Below, one piece after another: positions 2,274 to 54,597 of a stretch of DNA of 64,000 bases. The stretch covers positions 7,607,501 through 7,671,500 of the forward strand of contig NZ_JACHNB010000001.1 in NCBI RefSeq assembly GCF_014205225.1, written 5' to 3'. Position numbers and translations under genes: made by a program. Source of the DNA: Actinoplanes octamycinicus (GTDB taxonomy: Bacteria > Actinomycetota > Actinomycetes > Mycobacteriales > Micromonosporaceae). Numbering within the stretch: position 1 is the stretch's first letter; each line of letters opens with the position of its first letter. The notes beneath the pieces were generated by a model. The model did not search any database. It saw nothing but the letters and a program-made list of their open reading frames with translations, and was not told where the DNA came from.

Positions 2274-3461
2274 TCAGCGGACCCGGATCCCGGCCCGGTA
2301 GACGGCCGCCACCGCGGTCAGCGCCCCCGGGTCGGTCAGCGGGTCGCCGGCCACCGCGAGCAGGTCGGCGTCGTAGCCGGCCGCGACACGTCCCTTCCGG
2401 TCGCCCAGCCCGCACGCCCGCGCCGCGACCGAGGTGACCGACCGCAGCGCCTCGACCGGCGGGATGCCGAGCAGGCCCACCATCATCGCCGGGCCGTAGC
2501 CGAGCACGTCGGCCGGTTTGAGCGGCCCGATCCCGGCGTCGCTGCTGCACACCAGCGGCACCCCGGCCGCCCGCAGCTCCAGGAACACCGTGATGAGCAG
2601 CGGCAGCATCTTCTCGATCCGGGGTGGCCGGGACACCCCGGGCACCGGTTTCAGGGCGACCGTGGCGCCGATCGGGATGCCGGCCGCGGCGATCGCCCGC
2701 ACCACCGCCGGGTCCGCCTCGGCGCCCTCGGCGGTCATGAACGTGCCATGCTCGATCATGTCGACGCCGGCGGCGACCGCGTCGGCGATCCCGGCCCCAC
2801 CGTGCGCATGCACGGTCACCGGCAGGTGGCACCGGTGCGCCTCGTCGGCCGCGGCCCGCATCTCGGCCGCGCCGAACTGGGACACGTGCGACGCGCTGCC
2901 CTCGGTCAGCTCACCGCCGGTACCCATCACCTTGATCACGTCGACGCCGTGCTCGGCGTGTTCACGCACCGCGGCCCGGACCGCGTCCGGGCCGGGCTCG
3001 ACGCCGCCGCCGAGGAACCAGCAGTGCCCCCGGCCGGTGGTGATCGGCGGACCGGCGACGAGCAGCATCGGGCCGGCGGCCGGGTCGGCGGCCAGCTCGG
3101 CGCGCAGCCGCAGCGACAGGTAGCCGCGGTCGCCGAGGTCGCGGGCGGTGGTGACGCCGGAGGCGAGGGCGAGCCGCGCGTTCGCCCGCATGGTGGACAG
3201 CACCTGCTCGTCGCCGGCCGTGGCCAGCCCGCTGACCGGGTCGGCGGTGGCGTCGAAGACGAAGTGGACATGCGTGTCGACCAGGCCGGGCAGCAGGGTG
3301 ACCGCGCCCAGGTCGGTGACCGGGACGCCGGCGGGCAACTCGCCGCCGGACTGGACGGCGACGATCCGTCCGTTCTCGATCAGCACCGCGGGTTTCTCGA
3401 CCGGCTGCTCGCTCACCCCGTCGAAGAGCCGGCCGGCTCGCACAGCCAGCATGAGAACCAT
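2274..3461 (-). CDS. amidohydrolase (imidazolonepropionase/prolidase-like)
   Basis: Metal-dependent TIM-barrel amidohydrolase, 395 residues. The metal ligands are visible: DTHVHF after the beta-sandwich, the lysine region VDVIKVMGTGG, the histidine strands VTVHAHG and EHGT, and the catalytic aspartate SSDAG. The closest group is the imidazolonepropionase-like amidohydrolases, many of which cut Xaa-Pro or cyclic amide bonds; the true substrate cannot be read. Start ATG 3461, with ATG 3452 as alternative. It lies 56 bp downstream of jetD in the same direction, so some read-through from the Wadjet operon is possible, but no functional link is evident. Confidence 0.85.
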   Translation of the reverse strand: MVLMLAVRAGRLFDGVSEQPVEKPAVLIENGRIVAVQSGGELPAGVPVTDLGAVTLLPGLVDTHVHFVFDATADPVSGLATAGDEQVLSTMRANARLALASGVTTARDLGDRGYLSLRLRAELAADPAAGPMLLVAGPPITTGRGHCWFLGGGVEPGPDAVRAAVREHAEHGVDVIKVMGTGGELTEGSASHVSQFGAAEMRAAADEAHRCHLPVTVHAHGGAGIADAVAAGVDMIEHGTFMTAEGAEADPAVVRAIAAAGIPIGATVALKPVPGVSRPPRIEKMLPLLITVFLELRAAGVPLVCSSDAGIGPLKPADVLGYGPAMMVGLLGIPPVEALRSVTSVAARACGLGDRKGRVAAGYDADLLAVAGDPLTDPGALTAVAAVYRAGIRVR

Positions 3462-3517
3462 TCGACGCCGGTTGCTCGGCTGCCGTCGATCGGCTACCCG
3501 GTCCGATTGCGAGCCTT

Positions 3518-4747
3518 TCAGGTGTCTTCGCGGAATGTCCGGCCCATGTCGCTCCGCATGGGTCCGGCCTGACCCGCCAAGACCTGAAGCAGTCGGGTTG
3601 CGGCGTGGGTGAGCGGGATGGCCTCCTGTTCGATGCGCCGGAACGGGGTGGGGCCGGCGGTGGCGATGGTGTGGTACGCGATGGTCTCCGCCTCGGTCAG
3701 GTGCGGCAGGAGCACCGGTGACGCTTTGATAGGCCGGCCCGCCCTGTCGTGGTTGACCCCGTGCAGCGCGTACTGGTGCAGGTCAGCGGCTTCCATGAGG
3801 ATGGAGGAGACCTGTTTGGCCGGTGCGCCGTCCGGCGCGGGCTCGGCGAGGGCAGCGCGGAAATGGTCGAGGATCGCGTACCCGTCCGCGTCGATGTCGC
3901 CCCAGTAGACGACGTGCTCCGCGGAGCGGATCCACGGCACGTTCGCAAGGAGGACGGCCGCGGCCTTACCCCCACCCTCGACCACGATCGTATCGCTGAC
4001 CGGCGGGAACCAGAGACGGGAGTCGCGGTTCTCCACGACCAGGACGACGCGCGGCTGATAGGCGATGTCGTGCACGTCCCCGGTGGTCCAGGCGTCGTGC
4101 CGGCGCCGGCCGGACGCGGCGTGGCGTGGGTCGACGTCACGCCCGGCGACGTCGCGCAGCAGCCCGCCGTGCGTGTCGAGCCATTTGGTGTGCATCCCCG
4201 GCACCGGAAGTTGCCGCCGCGTCCAATCACCGGCGTCGGGGTGCCGGCGCAGCCAGGTCACCGCGTTGATCAGGACGTCAACGTCGGTGGCGGCAAGGCG
4301 GTAGACGGCCCGCAGCGTGGCCGGGGTGAGGGTGGCGCCGGCCGATCGCAGGGCCGAGGCCAGCGCCCGGGCCCGGCCGATGTCCACGGCCGGTGGCCCG
4401 GCATCGTCGCGGGTGTCGCGGAGGAGCGTGGCGGCGCCGTCCAGGTCCGCCTGCAGCACGGCCGGGAAGTCGCCGGTGACGCCTCGGACGGTCACCGCGG
4501 CCCGGGCGACTTCCACACCGGCGGGGAGCCGGCCGCAGAAGTCGCGCCACTGCATGTGCCACCCGTGCCAGGCGGTGTATCCGAGCTGCTCGACGGCTCT
4601 GCCGGTCCGCACCCCCGGGCGCAGCCGAACGGAGAATGCGACGGGGTCGCCGGCGCCGAGTTCCGCGCACACCGCCTCCGCCCACTTCTGGTCGAGCTTG
4701 CGGCCGACCGCCGCGACCGCGGCGAGCGGGGTGACGAGCGCGCTCAT
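3518..4747 (-). CDS. jetD: Wadjet defence subunit JetD (MksG-like nuclease)
   Basis: Fourth gene of the type I Wadjet operon, 409 residues (DUF3322 N-terminal part plus DUF2220/TOPRIM-like C-terminal part). The nuclease core is intact: VVLVVENRDS gives the metal-binding Glu239, and YWGDIDADGY gives the DxD aspartates (Asp284, Asp286, Asp288). In characterised Wadjet complexes the SMC motor JetABC reels in small closed circular DNA and JetD cuts it, blocking plasmid uptake. Its ATG overlaps the jetC stop as ATGA (4744-4747), indicating translational coupling. Confidence 0.93.
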   Translation of the reverse strand: MSALVTPLAAVAAVGRKLDQKWAEAVCAELGAGDPVAFSVRLRPGVRTGRAVEQLGYTAWHGWHMQWRDFCGRLPAGVEVARAAVTVRGVTGDFPAVLQADLDGAATLLRDTRDDAGPPAVDIGRARALASALRSAGATLTPATLRAVYRLAATDVDVLINAVTWLRRHPDAGDWTRRQLPVPGMHTKWLDTHGGLLRDVAGRDVDPRHAASGRRRHDAWTTGDVHDIAYQPRVVLVVENRDSRLWFPPVSDTIVVEGGGKAAAVLLANVPWIRSAEHVVYWGDIDADGYAILDHFRAALAEPAPDGAPAKQVSSILMEAADLHQYALHGVNHDRAGRPIKASPVLLPHLTEAETIAYHTIATAGPTPFRRIEQEAIPLTHAATRLLQVLAGQAGPMRSDMGRTFREDT

Positions 4748-7700
4748 GCGTCCGGCAGACCGACCAGGAGCTTCGCCCAGGATCGGCCGTGCGCATTCTT
4801 GAGGATCACGTACTCCGCGTCCACGTGCGGTTCGATCGCGCTGTGCTTGTCGTTCGGAGCGCCGATGACCAGTTGGAAGCCCAGTCCGCGCCAGGCACCG
4901 ATGGCACGGCCGGTGAAATGCGCATCCGCCTTGATCAACGCCTCGTCGAGGAAGACCGGGGCGTAGCGGGGACGGGCAGCGCCCGCGTCACCCAGCTGGT
5001 ATCGCAGTGCGGCGCCGACGATGAACGCGACGAGCTCCTGCGACTCGCCGCCGGACTTCTCACCGATGTGGTCGTAGACCGCGACGTGCCGGCCGTCGAG
5101 GTCGATCTTCTCGGCGCTGATCCGGACGTGGTTGCGCACGTCGACGAGGTCGGCGAAGTCCGGCGCGGTGCGGCGGATACGGTCGATCACCCTGGCCATC
5201 CGGTGATAGGCGCGTTCCCGGTCATCCTCGGTCGCGGCCTTGTCGATGAGGGCACGTACGTCGCGTAGCTCCTTGCGGAAGCGGGCGCGCGTCGTGGAGT
5301 GGCTCTCCTGCGGGTCGATGCGCAGCCGGTGTCCGTCGTCGGCGAACGGCAGTTCAGCGAGGATGCGGTTGACCGGGTCGATCCGGTCGCGGATCTCCCG
5401 GACCGCGGCGGCGAGTTCGCTGTCCAGGCCGGTCAGGTCGTTGCCGGACAGATTGAGCAGGCTGTCCCGCCACTCCGTCTCCAGCTCGTGCAGGCCACTG
5501 GACTCCAGGTCGGTGAGCAGGTGGTCGAAGTCGCGGTAGGAGGCGTCCGGGTCGACGCCGAGGTTCGGGTTCGGCCAGCGTTCGAGGAACGTGGAGAAGA
5601 TGTCGAGCAGCGCCTTCCGCGACCGGCCGATCGAGTCCGCCGCGGTTCGCCGGTCGGTGTCGAGCCGCTCGGTCGCGCGTTTCACTCCCGCGTCGAACTG
5701 CGCGAGCAGGTCCACCGGGCCGGCGCTGTCCGGGTCGTTGTCGAAAAGGGTCTCCAGGTAGTCCCGGTGGTCCTCGTCGAGGGTGACGCCGGATGCGGTG
5801 GCCGTGTCGAGCGCCGTCTGGGCGCGATCCACCTCGTCGACGATGGCCGCCCAGGACTTCGCCACGGCGTCCCGGGTGTCCTTCTGCCGGCCGACACGCT
5901 CGGTGAGGTCTCTGACCTGCTGCTTGAGGTCGTCCAGCTGGCGCTGCAGCTGATCGATCTCCGGGTTGCCGGCGCGGATCTCCTCGATGACGCCGTTCCA
6001 GCGATCACGTTCCGCCCGCACCGCATCGACGTCCACCTGATCCCACGAGAACTCAGTCACCAGCTGGTAGGCGGTGCGTCTGGCTTCCAGCGAGTCGAGG
6101 TTCTCCTCCTGCGTCGACACTCTCGCGACGGCATCGTCGAGGCGCTGGCGCGTACGGGTGCTACGGTCCTCGAGTTCGGCGAGCGTCCTGCTGTTCGTGA
6201 AGCCGAGCACGTTGGCGCGGCCGTGACCGCCGTGCGCGCCGCGGCCGCCGTCCGACGTCTGGCCGGTGATCGTGAGGGCCTTGGCGTACTGCGGCAGCAG
6301 CCGGGGCGAGTCGACGCAGACGTACGCGAACCGGCGGGCGAGTTCGCTCTTGAGCCAGGCGGTGAACGGCGACGGCCGGTAGTCGAGCCGCCCGGGGAGC
6401 GTCTTGCCGTCGAGTCCGACCTCGTCCCGCAGCCCGGTGCGGACGCCCTCGAACTGGACCCGCCGCGCGGTCGACACCGAGTTGATCGCCTCGCGGAACG
6501 CGTTCAGCCGGCCGATGTCGATCAGCAGCCGGGTGGCGAATCCGCCGAGCGCCAGGTTGAACGCCTCCCGCCACGGCTCGAACTCGGTCCGCACCTCGAT
6601 CAGCTCGCCGACGAACGGCAGGTCCTCAGGGCCGAGTCCGGCGGCCTCGGCCAACGCCGCGCGTGCCGCGTGCAGGTCGGTCGGGATGTTGCCGCGGCGG
6701 GCCTTGACCGCGGTGTGCTCGGCGCGCAACGCTTCCAGCTCCTGCTCGGCCGCTTTCCGCTCCGCCATCGCGTCGGCGTAGGCCTGCTGAGCGGTCCGCC
6801 GGGCGTCGACGTCCGCCACTGAGCGATGCGCCGTCTCGACCAGCCCGGCGAAGTCCGCACCGGTCGAGACCGAGGCGCCGATCGTGACCAGCACCCGGTC
6901 CAGTCGCTCCCGGGCGCGTTCCACCTCGGCCAGCCGCTGCTCCACGACGCGGATCTCCCGCTGCGCGGTGTCCATGCGGTCCCCACCCGAGGCGCGAATG
7001 GTGTCGGCGATTCCGTCGCGCTGCGTCTCGGCCGCGGTGACCAGGGCGTTGGTCTCCGCCAGCTCCTCCTGGGCGCGGCGGTGCCGCTGGTCCAGGTCCT
7101 TTTCTGCCGAGCGCAACAGGTCGAGCCGGCGGTGATGACGCCACAGCGCGGCGGGCGACGCCGCGTCGGTGAAGGACCCGATCTCATCGATCGACCGCAA
7201 CCGGTCCACCGCTTCGTCGATGGTGCGCCGGTGGTCGCGGATCGGGGTCAACGCCTTCACCTGCTGGCGGGCGGTGATCATCCGGGCGCGGGTGCCGGAC
7301 AGCTCGTCGAACTGCTGCACCACCGCGTCCGCGGTAGCAAGCGTGGAAGGCTCCTCCAGGACCATCGTCTTGTACAGGGCGTCGACCGTGGTGATCTGCT
7401 GGCCGGCCTGGATCCGGCCGAGCAACGCGACCGCTTTGTGCCCGTCCCCGGCGGCGCCGATGCCGAGCGTGGTGTGCAGGCGCGCGGTGAAGTCCCGGTC
7501 GGTCTCGCACCAGTTCAAGCCGGTTGCCACCACGTCGGCGCGGGCGAGCTTCCGGCTCGCCGGGCCCTCCAGCGCTCGCAGCTGATATTCGTGGTCGCAG
7601 GTGGCGCGTACCGCCACGACGTCGTCCAGGGTGCGGGCGGACGACGGGACGTACCAGGCGCGCAGCGCGGTGAACTCGGCACCGGTGTGGTCCACCCAGG

Positions 7701-8088
7701 TCATCGCGATGGCAGACCAGGTGTCGCGGCCGTCGCCACGCAGCACTCGGAGCTTCGTCTCCCCGTCGGTGCGTGACTCGTCGAGCTTGCCGCGCGCGTA
7801 GGAGAGGATGTTGCGCTGGTCCTTGCCCCGCGGCCGGCCGACCACTCCGCCGTTGGACGCCCCGTTGAAGGGAGTCGTGTGCGGCATGAGCAACGCGATG
7901 TACGAGTCCATCAGTGTCGACTTGCCCGATCCGGAACCGCCGCTCAGCAGGGTGGCGCCGGGCGCGAGCCGTACGTGGTGATACCCGTCGTAGCCGCCCC
8001 AGTTGACCAGTTGCAGGTCGCGCGCCACCCACTGCTGACCTCGGGACGCCGCCGGGACCAGGCCGAACAGCGTGTCGATCATGCTCAT
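4744..8088 (-). CDS. jetC: Wadjet SMC-like ATPase JetC (MksB-like)
   Basis: SMC-family ATPase of 1114 residues. Order: N-terminal ATPase lobe with Walker [10 protein letters not shown] (residues 50-58), long coiled coils rich in Arg, Glu and Ala, a central globular hinge-like region around residues 480-650, a second coiled coil, then the C-terminal lobe with signature KSGGES (from 1011) and Walker B VFLDE (Asp1048, Glu1049). All catalytic motifs are present, so it should be an active DNA-translocating motor. ATG 8088 is preferred over an in-frame ATG at 8118 because it overlaps the jetB stop as ATGA (8085-8088). Confidence 0.94.
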
Positions 8089-8756
8089 GCGGTGGCCTTG
8101 GCCTGGTCGCGCAGCCACTGGTCAAGCTCGGCCAATTTCTCTCTGCTCAGCACGACCTCCACCAGAGGGGTGATCCGGTACCGGCCGGTCGACTCCTCGG
8201 CGAGCAGGCCCTCACTGACGAGCCGCTGCACCGCGTTGCGCACCTCCTGCTGGCGCCGGGCCAGGTTGAGATCGTGCGGGTCGAAGTAGGTCAGCACGGT
8301 CTGCTCCAGTTCCTCGATGTCCACTCGAGCGGACGTCTCGCCCGTGCCGCGCTCCCGCTGGTAGACGGTGCGCAGGTGGACCAGGACCAGGGTCTCGGCC
8401 CGGTTGTAGGGGTCGTCCTTGAGCAGGATCGGCACGTCCAGCTCCACCGATCGCACCTGCTGCTTGTAGGCGACGCCCCGGTCGTGGTCGACCACCAGGC
8501 GGACGAACAGGTCGTGCATGCGCGACTCGATGATCTGCTGGTTCTCCAGCAGCGTGCGCCACTGCGCCGGGTTCTTCTCGGCGAGCAGGAACTTGCGCCG
8601 CAACAGCTGGACCAGCACCCGGCGGACATCCGCGTCCAGCGTGCCCGCGTCGCCGGCGAACAGCTCGGCGGGATCCTCCTCCATCGAAACCGGATCGATG
8701 AACCCGGCCGCCTCGCCCGCCGACCAGTCGTCGTCAGTCTCGACCGGCTCACTCAT
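8085..8756 (-). CDS. jetB: Wadjet subunit JetB (MksE-like, DUF4194)
   Basis: Small winged-helix (KITE-type) subunit of 223 residues, DUF4194 family. The first 35 residues are acidic; then come helical repeats and a C-terminal winged helix that includes [17 protein letters not shown] and [10 protein letters not shown], typical of MksE/JetB. In the complex JetB bridges the kleisin JetA and the SMC JetC. Start ATG 8756 is chosen because it overlaps the jetA stop by 8 bp; an upstream in-frame ATG at 8801 would add a basic stretch lying inside jetA. Confidence 0.9.
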
Positions 8757-10251
8757 CGCCACCGCTCCTGTCCGCGCCGAACGGGTTCGCCGCCACCACA
8801 CCGCCGAGAGCGAACCGCCGCCGGGTCCGGTCCGGGCGCACCGTATCGACCACCTCGACCTCGGCCGTCTCGGTCATCCCCGCACCGTTGGCGATCTCCA
8901 GCAGGCCGAGCAGATCGACCGGCCGCTGGAGCTCCGCACCCGCCGCGCGGAACGCGGCCACGACATCGACGCTCGCCGCGCCGCCCGCGAACGCCGCCAG
9001 ATGCGTGTGCAACTCGGCGTACCGGGGGCCGCCCCAGGCCCGGGTGTCGACGGCCGGCATCTCCTCAGTCTCCGCCCAGTCCCGCAACGGCGCCGGAGGT
9101 TGCGGCGGCCGCGGGTCGGTCATCCGCTGACGCAGGTGTCCGACGTCGGCGACCGGCAAGCGGCGCAGCGGCTCGACGGCCTCGCCGCGCCGCGAGCCGG
9201 GAATCCACCTGTGCAGGCCGGACATGACATCCCGCAGCAATTCGTCCACCTGACGGTCCCGCATCGGATCGTGGTTGCGAACCTGGCTGGTGATCACGTG
9301 CGACGCCTGCCGCTGGGCGGCCAGCACCTCCTTGACCCCTTGTTCGATCCGCCGCGATATCTCGGTCAGCTCGCGCCGCTGCTGCTCCGGCAGCAGCTCG
9401 GTGAACCGGTGGCGCAGGACAGTACGCAGCTGCCCCCACAGGGTGTCGATCTGCGCCGGGTCGCCGATCAGGCGCAACGCCCCGGCAAAGGCGCGACCCT
9501 CCGGTGTCGCGTCCAAGATCCGCTGACCGCGCGCCAGGTACTCGCGCAGCACCTCACCGGTGGGCCGCACGTCGTGCCGCAGTTCCGCGACTACGTCGCG
9601 CTGAATCGCTTTGATCGACTCGGCCACGCGGGCGAAATCCGCGGGCAGTTCCCGCGCCAGGTGCAGCACGTTCTCGGCCGCTTCGAGCAGCTGCTCGTCG
9701 GCGACGGTCTCGACGGCGCCACCTTTCTCGAGCCGTGTCAGCTCCTTCTGCCGCTGCTGGATCTCCTCGTGCAGGCGCACCATCCGGGACATCAGGTCCG
9801 GGTCCGCGTCCTGCGCGAGTCGCTCGATCGCGTCCAGCAGCGTTCTGACCCGCGACTCGGACACCCTGGTCCGCGCCCCGCCCACCCGCCCGGCGACCTC
9901 GAGGGCACCGACGCCGTACGCCGACAGCCGGTACACCTCGACATCGTCGTCGGACACCTGCCGGACCAGCCATCCCGCCTGCACCCACTGCCGGCAGAGA
10001 TCACGCGCGGTGCCCGCCGGCAGAGGCTGGCCGTCCTCGTCGCCGTAGCCCGCGGCCCGTAACTGGTCGAGGGCGTCGTTGATCTCCGCATGCGTGTCCG
10101 CGACCGCGACCGTCGGCCGTTCCGCGGTGAAGACCATCGCCAGCACCGTCACCACGAAGGGCGCGTGCGTCTGGTGCAGCAAGGCGAGCATCGGATTCTG
10201 GAACGCCCGCAACGCACCCTGATAAGCACCTTCAACACCTCGTGTAGCCAT
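8749..10251 (-). CDS. jetA: Wadjet kleisin-like subunit JetA (MksF-like, DUF3375)
   Basis: First gene of the operon, 500 residues, DUF3375 family. It is the kleisin-like subunit that closes the SMC ring. Visible features are an N-terminal winged-helix segment ([19 protein letters not shown], then [18 protein letters not shown]), a helical middle with the coiled coil [17 protein letters not shown], and an alpha-helical remainder. With jetB, jetC and jetD it gives the canonical type I order A-B-C-D. A TAGGCT box ends 8 nt before ATG 10251, so the operon probably has its own leaderless or near-leaderless promoter, separate from the response regulator gene 75 bp upstream. Confidence 0.9.
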
Positions 10252-10259
10252 CAGCAGAC

Positions 10260-10265
10260 AGCCTA
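10260..10265 (-). promoter_or_regulatory. candidate -10 box of the jetABCD operon
   Basis: On the minus strand TAGGCT lies 8 nt upstream of the jetA ATG. It fits the TAnnnT actinobacterial -10 pattern and the spacing seen at other likely leaderless genes in this window. Confidence 0.45.
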
Positions 10266-10326
10266 AGGCCGGGCCGCTCCGGGCCGGTCAGCGGCCAGAA
10301 CTCCCGCAGGAGCGGCGGCCCGGGAC

Positions 10327-10986
10327 TCACTGGACCGGGTCGGCCAGGCCGCACTCGTAGCCCAGGATCACCGCCTGGACGCGGTCGCGCAGGTCGAGTT
10401 TGGCCAGGATCCGGCCGAGGTGGGTCTTCACGGTGCTCTCCGAGAGCACCAGGGTGGCGGCGATCTCCGGGTTCGACAGGCCGCGGGTGACCAGGGTGAG
10501 GACCTCGCGCTCGCGGCCGGTGAGGACGGCGAGCCGCTGGTCGGCGGCGGCGCGTGGCGGGGTGCTGCCCAGGTAGTGCGCGATCAGCCGCCGGGTCACG
10601 CTGGGCGCGGCCACCGACTCGCCGGCGGCGACCACCCGGACCGCGGAGACCAGGTCGGCGGCGAGCGCGTCCTTGAGCAGGAAGCCGCTGGCCCCGGCGC
10701 GCAGCCCGGCCAGCACGTACTCGTCGAGGTCGAAGGTGGTCAGGATGATCACCCGGGCCGGGTGCGGGCCGGTCCGGATCCGGCGGGTGGCCTCGATGCC
10801 GTCCAGGCCGGGCATCCGGACGTCCATCAGCACCACGTCCGGCCGGGTGCGGGCCACCACGTCGAGCGCCTGCGCGCCGTCGGCGGCCTCGCCGACCACG
10901 TCGATGTCCCCGGTCTCGTCGAGCACCAGCCGGAAACCGGTCCGCACCAGCGTCTGGTCGTCGACCAGCACCACCCGGACGCTCAT
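10327..10986 (-). CDS. NarL/FixJ-family response regulator
   Basis: 219-residue response regulator. The receiver domain holds VLVDD near residues 6-10, the phosphoacceptor Asp55 in VVLMDVRMPG, and a conserved Lys in FLLKDALAADL. A C-terminal LuxR-type helix-turn-helix follows (LTGREREVLTLVTRGL, then SESTVKTHLGRILAKL). Its ATG overlaps the stop of the sensor kinase gene (ATGA, 10983-10986), so the two form a cognate pair. The divergent lipoprotein/ABC operon from 12435 is the obvious candidate target, by position only. Confidence 0.94.
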   Translation of the reverse strand: MSVRVVLVDDQTLVRTGFRLVLDETGDIDVVGEAADGAQALDVVARTRPDVVLMDVRMPGLDGIEATRRIRTGPHPARVIILTTFDLDEYVLAGLRAGASGFLLKDALAADLVSAVRVVAAGESVAAPSVTRRLIAHYLGSTPPRAAADQRLAVLTGREREVLTLVTRGLSNPEIAATLVLSESTVKTHLGRILAKLDLRDRVQAVILGYECGLADPVQ

Positions 10987-53829: not shown

Positions 53830-54597
53830 ATGACGGGCCGGTTCCTGCGCGACATCGCGCTCGACACGACCGGCCTGGACCGCCGCCGGTACCCGTTCAA
53901 CCTGCCGATCGTCACCGGACTGATCGCCGCCGGCCGGCTCGACCTGGCGCCCGGCGTCACCTTCCTGACCGGCGACAACGGCTCCGGAAAGTCCACCCTG
54001 GTCGAGGCGGTCGCGGTCGCGGCCGGCTTCAACCCGGAGGGCGGCAGCCGCAACTTCCGGTTCGCCACCCGGGCCACCGAGTCGCCGCTCGGACAGCACC
54101 TGATCGTCGGCCGGCGGCCCGGGCGCCGCGAACGCTCCAACTTCTTCTTCCGCGCCGAGTCGTTCTACAACGTCGCCACCGAGATCGAGAACGTCGGGAT
54201 GGAGCAGGCCTACGGCGGCCGCAGCCTGCACGAGCGCTCCCACGGCGAGTCGTTCCTCGACTTGATCACCCACCGGTTCCACCCGGAGGGCCTCTACCTG
54301 CTCGACGAGCCCGAGGCGGCGCTCTCCCCGCGCGGCCTGCTGATCGCCTTGGCCCGCCTGCACGAGCTGGTCCGGGCCGGCTCGCAGATGCTGATCGCGA
54401 CCCACTCCCCGATCCTGCTCGCCCTGCCCGGCGCCACGATCCTGCAGGCCGAGGCGGACGGCCGGCTACGCCAGGTCACCTACGACGAGGCCGACGCGGT
54501 CCAGGTGACCCGCGACTTCCTCACCGCTCCCCAACGCTCCCTGCGCCACTTACTGACCGATCAACCCGATTTCCGGTACGGTCCGAGCCCGCCGTGA
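53830..54597 (+). CDS. AAA family ATPase (ABC/SMC-like, YbdK-type)
   Basis: 255-residue ATPase of the OLD/ABC-like AAA_23 type: Walker A GDNGSGKST (48-56), Walker B GLYLLDEPEAALS (158-162 core) and H-loop IATHSPILLALPG. It lacks coiled coils and accessory nuclease domains. These small ATPases are common single genes; some belong to defence or DNA repair, but no partner is present. Tandem repeats begin within its last codons. Confidence 0.87.
   Translation: MTGRFLRDIALDTTGLDRRRYPFNLPIVTGLIAAGRLDLAPGVTFLTGDNGSGKSTLVEAVAVAAGFNPEGGSRNFRFATRATESPLGQHLIVGRRPGRRERSNFFFRAESFYNVATEIENVGMEQAYGGRSLHERSHGESFLDLITHRFHPEGLYLLDEPEAALSPRGLLIALARLHELVRAGSQMLIATHSPILLALPGATILQAEADGRLRQVTYDEADAVQVTRDFLTAPQRSLRHLLTDQPDFRYGPSPP

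Follow-up and report, generated by a model that had tools for sequence, protein, structure and literature searches.

Operon organization and subunit identity

We analyzed a 64,000-nucleotide stretch of the Actinoplanes octamycinicus genome (contig NZ_JACHNB010000001.1, positions 7,607,501 to 7,671,500; hereafter the window), in which positions 3518-10251 of the minus strand hold a type I Wadjet operon. Wadjet is a bacterial system that cleaves small DNA circles (under ~100 kb for type I) and restricts plasmids. The four genes lie in the order jetA-B-C-D with overlaps of 8, 4 and 4 bp (Table 1), as a first-pass annotation made from the sequence had described, and the type I models JetA1, JetB1, JetC1 and JetD1 were the top matches of the four products in a PADLOC profile search. 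That annotation had named Pfam families as a check on its assignment, and matches above cut-off were recovered for every subunit: DUF3375 (JetA), DUF4194 (JetB), AAA_29 and SbcC_Walker_B (the SMC-type JetC), and DUF3322 and JetD_C (JetD). Sequence matches to solved chains were found for JetA, JetB and JetC in 8dk1/8dk2 and for JetD in 8b7f (MksG, 8.1e-14) and 8q72 (JetD, 0.00062).

The Walker A, signature and Walker B motifs of JetC are all intact in the window copy, as are the Toprim acidic residues of JetD (E239, D284, D286 and D288), both as previously noted. These acidic residues are invariant in 27/27 aligned proteins; E239 aligns with E248 of the solved JetD 8q72, a residue mutated there (E248A). 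The window genome is a single 10.28-Mb contig, and the nearest jet operons among named records belong to Actinoplanes species. Taken together, the profile and motif matches leave it well supported that all four subunits at the window locus are of type I Wadjet descent.

Table 1. Features of the jet locus and its flanks, in window coordinates.
Feature	Position	Strand	Remarks
jetA (kleisin, DUF3375)	8749..10251	minus	500 aa; PADLOC JetA1 1e-209; PF11855 374.5 bits; PDB 8dk1_A JetA 1.5e-16
jetB (KITE, DUF4194/MksE-like)	8085..8756	minus	223 aa; PADLOC JetB1 1.5e-110; 8 bp shared with jetA
jetC (MukB-like SMC ATPase)	4744..8088	minus	1114 aa; PADLOC JetC1 E 0, 1679 bits; PDB 8dk2_C 1.2e-48; 4 bp shared with jetB
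jetD (DUF3322 + JetD_C/Toprim nuclease)	3518..4747	minus	409 aa, 16-residue in-frame deletion; PADLOC JetD1 9.3e-68; 4 bp shared with jetC
Junction of 48-bp jetD deletion (GACGTCGAC)	4130..4138	minus	ACGTC at both ends of the absent stretch in 2/7 relatives compared
TAGGCT, putative -10 element of a leaderless promoter	10260..10265	minus	8 nt before jetA ATG; TGTCGTAC element of many relatives missing here
jetB N-terminal motif FIxPVxMExDPxxLFAGDxGxL, candidate JetD-docking stretch	about 8702-8634	minus	Recognizable in rows with and without jetD
Inserted unit, ~6.86 kb	3454..10313		Versus empty site in G027; operon inside, no integrase/transposase gene
Response regulator (host locus, upstream side)	10327..10986	minus	95% identical in empty-site relative
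Amidohydrolase-like gene (downstream side)	2274..3461	minus	83% identical in empty-site relative; named by eye

The window JetD lacks a near-invariant segment

The first-pass annotation had also remarked that nothing in the operon looked decayed, which is contradicted by jetD and holds for JetABC only. When 27 JetD proteins were aligned, that of the window proved to lack 16 consecutive residues directly before the Toprim part, ahead of E239. The underlying deletion removes 48 bp at the junction of the N-terminal and Toprim domains and keeps the reading frame; in the JetD alignment, invariance reaches 90% or more at 11 of the 16 absent positions. The stretch from RQL to RRHDAW measures 59 residues in 36/36 other jetD loci compared with 43 in the window. 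Among the best 120 of 377 homologues, one of which is the window's own, the segment is present in 119/119 others, and 115 of these have a stretch of exactly 59 residues. Of the remaining four, three were missed by the regular expression, with the segment visible in their excerpts, and in homologue P0108 the stretch is 56 residues long, with the 16 residues there and a separate 3-residue gap elsewhere. The 36 loci and the 119 homologues are overlapping sets; among the jetD genes and proteins compared, the 16-residue gap is unique to the window copy.

The Pfam JetD_C match begins at profile position 25 in the window JetD, and in six other control genomes it begins at 7 (the jet-operon copy of G089, same genus), 7, 5, 3, 7 and 21 (Leifsonia). 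In the DNA of seven relatives, ACGTC stands at both ends of the stretch absent from the window in loci L070 and L073, and ATGTC at both ends in L074 and L029; such short flanking repeats suggest that the deletion may have arisen by slippage. Every other homologue examined retains the absent segment; the JetD nuclease of the window is therefore probably impaired, and we infer the structural effect of the deletion from this conservation alone. A Foldseek search with the weak-confidence JetD model returned an RNase M5 Toprim (probability 0.90) and the 8q72 JetD (0.77) among weak matches, none at E <= 0.001. Separately, the jetD frame of L081 (Microbispora triticiradicis) extends to 594 codons versus the usual ~410.

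jetD is repeatedly absent from the subfamily

Within the subfamily of the window operon, jetD is missing or a remnant in 24 loci, or in 22 after removal of L115 (a copy of L040) and L120 (which ends inside jetC). A whole-genome search for JetD_C gave no match in 20 of these 22 jetD-less genomes and a match in 7/7 controls; in the other two, Cellulomonas marina and Microbacterium sp. 5K110, the match lies elsewhere and not behind jetC in the DNA examined. We placed jetD presence on a tree of concatenated JetA, JetB and JetC, built by a quick method from 57 rows (36 with jetD and 21 without) after leaving out L115, L038 (jetC frameshift), and L116 and L120 (incomplete). This tree requires 11 or more changes of jetD state, of which at least 10 are forced by starred branches, compared with 17.2 changes when the labels were shuffled. 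Remnants of jetD persist in several loci (Pseudosporangium ferrugineum, Sphaerisporangium rufum and Actinomadura sp. 6K520), for which reason we read the changes as losses, which would then have occurred about ten times. As judged from these loci, members of this subfamily can dispense with the nuclease. As background only, a class-wide survey of 394 genomes, which includes other subfamilies and from which incomplete JetA rows had been dropped beforehand along with the weakest JetD rows, found 38 of 66 near-full-length DUF3375 loci without JetD_C within 10 kb.

Every jetD-less JetC keeps the three ATPase motifs. The sole row without a JetC Walker B motif is L038 (genome G025), which has a jetC frameshift near codon 1040 and open jetA, jetB and jetD. 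The gene lists examined for jetD-less loci held no common gene behind jetC that could serve as a substitute nuclease. Loss of the JetB N-terminal stretch along with jetD was likewise rejected, its motif (Table 1) being recognizable in jetD-bearing and jetD-less rows. JetABC-type complexes without a nuclease are known as MksBEF. In the Pseudosporangium ferrugineum loci L031/L075, a short, internally deleted jetD remnant stands behind jetC, followed by genes that we take to resemble type III Wadjet subunits.

Selection on the core subunits was estimated as omega (the ratio of nonsynonymous to synonymous substitution rates) by the Nei-Gojobori method for 27 hand-chosen pairs. JetC omega was 0.07-0.12 in six jetD-less Microbacterium pairs, compared with 0.14-0.28 in 12 jetD-bearing pairs, 0.18-0.35 in four other jetD-less pairs and 0.22-0.33 in five mixed pairs. 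JetA and JetB did not differ in this way (0.08-0.19 and 0.09-0.26 in the Microbacterium pairs; 0.07-0.18 and 0.08-0.29 in the jetD-bearing pairs). Strong constraint without jetD is thus seen in Microbacterium and is greatest in JetC. For the window, the omega values of JetABC were 0.09-0.20 versus L069 and L072.

While the assignment to type I Wadjet stands, the earlier expectation that this locus should limit plasmid uptake is weakened by the missing JetD segment. Presence of the operon alone is no predictor of plasmid restriction, because jetABC recurs without jetD among its subfamily relatives.

jetA carries half of a predicted damage-type promoter

The TAGGCT box 8 nt ahead of jetA, to which the first-pass annotation had given no meaning, was confirmed and is conserved in position. 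Among 17 jet operons of the genus (the window's included; JetC identity at least 78%), a TANNCT box lies 7-9 nt ahead of the jetA start in 17/17, and TGTC lies 16 nt before this box in 12, typically as TGTCGTACC. The exceptions are L030, L031, L032, L035 and the window, which keeps TAGGCT and lacks the TGTC 16 nt before it. Across the subfamily, TANNNT occurs 6-10 nt before the start codon in 56 of 57 distinct jetA upstreams versus 51 of 595 predicted neighboring genes. TGTC[AG] occurs exactly 16 nt before TANNNT in 27/57, with no other offset between 8 and 39 giving more than one case, and the pair occurs anywhere in 80 nt in 4/595 control genes; the 57 upstream rows are related by descent, such that these counts are not independent draws. 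Outside the Microbacteriaceae, the TGTCN pair is about equally common with jetD (21/35) and without it (7/13).

Passages of PMC5656591 give the consensus of mycobacterial RecA-independent promoters (RecA-NDp, P1) as tTGTCRgtg, 8 nt, TannnT, and a portion of PMC11804915 describes PafB contacting the -26 element. The jetA upstreams resemble this PafBC promoter in that TGTCR stands exactly 16 nt before TANNNT in the 27 rows; they differ in that the genus form is TGTCRTAC instead of TGTCRGTG, and in that the window jetA is without the TGTC half. We therefore read the subfamily promoter as one predicted to have the register of a PafBC DNA-damage promoter. By its sequence and position, the window TAGGCT is predicted to be the -10 half of such a leaderless promoter, with the other half missing. 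A search of window positions 3300-10700 for a sigma-70 -35/-10 pair that could serve as the operon promoter found none. In 8/15 Actinomadura and 3/3 Promicromonospora rows (L088-L107), the leader from the -10 element to the ATG is or begins with GGTCGGCG, while the other upstream bases differ.

The window genome itself contains 25 occurrences of TGTCRTAC-N8-TANNNT versus 0 of the reversed pattern. Of the 20 downstream proteins scanned among these 25, ten are repair or replication types (RecA, an AlkZ-like glycosylase, a RadA-like AAA protein, a Prim-Pol, an exonuclease with GIY-YIG, polymerase I, UvrB, UvrA, an IMS-family (DinB-type) polymerase and a DEAD helicase), and the other ten are mixed or without a Pfam match. 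The likeness to PafBC promoters thus extends to the genes served, since the TGTCRTAC form precedes recA, uvrA, uvrB, polA and a dinB-type gene. The recA and DinB-type genes begin 7 nt past the -10 element and would be leaderless, as would jetA. The strict mycobacterial pattern TTGTCRGTG gave two matches, one of them ahead of an open reading frame resembling a membrane protein. The host encodes PafB and PafC side by side, as adjacent WYL+WCX genes of which one matches HTH_PafC at 141.8 bits, with tatA/tatC-like open reading frames (read by eye) next after them. In the same genome, another damage-type promoter (L145, G000:C1:2474169-2474190) is followed at 8 nt by a gene for an AbiEii-like nucleotidyltransferase.

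No link between Wadjet and a PafBC or DNA-damage promoter was found in the literature searched, mostly at the level of titles and openings of abstracts and without bioRxiv preprints and most subscription journals, and little was found there on the control of Wadjet expression. Both Wadjet and PafBC are mentioned in excerpts of PMC9122601, but apart from each other.

The operon lies in the host locus as a bare cassette

In genome G027, of the same genus, the genes that flank the operon in the window are contiguous, with no operon between them. Identities to the window are 78% for the sensor kinase (over the available part), 95% for the response regulator, 83% for the amidohydrolase, 84% for a patatin-like protein and 88% for EamA (likewise over the available part). 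DNA similarity between G027 and the window ends at 10314 and returns at 3453, and the inserted unit would therefore be the operon alone. G027 has its own jet operon at another site. In 16/16 close-relative loci, none of the eight window flank proteins stands beside the operon as an ortholog; matches to them were only response regulators, histidine kinases or ABC proteins at 32-54%, in three loci.

A mobile element as carrier was rejected because the inserted 6.86 kb holds no integrase or transposase gene. Nor was a defense island seen among the proteins examined: PADLOC searches with ten other window proteins (four less than 4 kb from the operon and six farther away) gave only weak response-regulator, helix-turn-helix and ATPase matches. 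At window positions 53830-54597, a small AAA ATPase-like protein matches the PADLOC models AriA, mad3 and PtuA (best 1.3e-15) and is probably a generic ATPase.

A proposed reading: intact JetABC core, impaired nuclease

The explanation that we favor, with moderate confidence, is that the window holds a chromosomal type I Wadjet with an intact JetABC core, an impaired JetD and one half of its damage promoter missing. The operon would have entered the chromosome as a bare cassette, with a two-component system on one side and an amidohydrolase gene on the other. JetABC would still assemble and extrude DNA, by analogy with its solved relatives, while DNA cutting by JetD would be reduced or lost. 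Transcription of jetA would be leaderless; because it would no longer be PafBC-activated, expression would be basal or would come from read-through from the response regulator upstream. The window locus thus resembles an early stage in the loss of jetD that the tree suggests. Several observations weigh against this explanation. TGTCN at offset 16 is missing in 28/57 upstreams, so its lack in the window is not unusual, and the upstreams without it include 11/15 Actinomadura rows and seven jetD-less Microbacteriaceae rows. AlphaFold gives a mean predicted local distance difference test score (pLDDT) of 74 for the window JetD and 70 for an intact relative, both models being weak in the Toprim half, the deleted segment included. 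The jetD omega between the window and L069 is 0.22, inside the range of the 12 jetD-bearing pairs (0.15-0.42), which indicates no clear relaxation; with the deletion in frame as well, this would be compatible with a JetD that still functions or with a recent deletion. Finally, some of the jetD state changes could be gains.

The lack of clear relaxation in jetD, together with four open and overlapping genes and intact JetC ATPase motifs and JetD Toprim acids, would fit a fully working type I Wadjet in which JetABCD can do without the 16 residues and both extrudes and cuts small circular DNA. We consider this unlikely given that 36/36 loci and 119/119 listed homologues keep a segment so nearly invariant at 11 of its 16 positions. 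A different possibility, which we entertain without regarding it as probable, is that subfamily JetABC has a JetD-independent, MksBEF-like job, plausibly related to DNA damage or to maintenance of the chromosome, and that this job rather than plasmid cutting keeps the operon here. The repeated jetD state changes with retention of all JetC ATPase motifs, the low JetC omega in the jetD-less Microbacterium pairs and the similar frequency, outside the Microbacteriaceae, of the TGTCN promoter with and without jetD argue for it. However, JetA and JetB are not more constrained in the same Microbacterium pairs, the four other jetD-less pairs may be in slow decay, the TGTC element is missing from the seven Microbacteriaceae rows without jetD, the window still carries jetD, and a passage of PMC7083940 gives Corynebacterium glutamicum MksBEFG no chromosome role. 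The joint absence of the promoter element and the jetD segment from one copy, along with the jetD remnants of the three relatives named above, could instead mean that the entire operon is decaying after insertion, with jetABC next in line; this seems distinctly unlikely to us, as the window JetABC is intact and its omega values are low. An assembly or sequencing error as the source of the 48-bp gap is highly improbable. A short direct repeat does lie at the junction, as in some relatives, but 5 bp is too short to collapse reads. A single member sequence makes up the JetD cluster of the window and occurs on four contigs, of which the longest (10,310,119 bp) is not the window's own (10,277,926 bp); this makes one faulty assembly unlikely, although repeated sequencing of one strain is possible.

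Beyond the favored explanation, we tentatively propose, at less than even odds, a broader scheme in which the JetABC extruder of many subfamily members is part of the PafBC DNA-damage regulon and serves a nuclease-independent function, JetD being an optional plasmid-cutting add-on dropped about ten times. The window would then be an intermediate, its core intact, its nuclease without a conserved segment and its damage switch severed where the operon was inserted. Repeated jetD loss could also stem from the cost of a circle-cutting nuclease. If the promoter is damage-inducible, cells would raise a DNA-shape sensor upon DNA damage. The repeated absence of the nuclease and the strongly constrained Microbacterium JetC provide natural jetABC-only strains for asking what the motor does on its own. 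They also carry a warning: a four-gene Wadjet call is no proof of plasmid restriction, and a nuclease may be called present yet miss a conserved segment.

Relationship to known systems

The window operon shares with the solved type I Wadjet/JetABCD complexes (PDB 8as8, 8dk2, 8q72 and 7til) the four subunit families, the gene order, the JetC ATPase motifs and the JetD Toprim acids. It differs from them in the 16 residues missing from JetD, in the leaderless DNA-damage-type promoter predicted for much of its subfamily and half missing in the window, and in the frequent absence of jetD from that subfamily. The MksBEFG system of C. glutamicum is likewise actinobacterial, and its MksG (8b7f, 8.1e-14) is the nearest of the solved chains to the window JetD, but its gene order is mksGBEF according to a passage of PMC7083940. 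Its MksG nuclease works in vitro according to part of PMC10123090. The same passages of PMC7083940 describe Pseudomonas aeruginosa MksBEF, which lacks MksG, as an assumed chromosome organizer. The jetD-less relatives share the three-subunit make-up of MksBEF, although their lineages are scattered inside one Wadjet subfamily, and the window itself differs in that it has a jetD, in shortened form.

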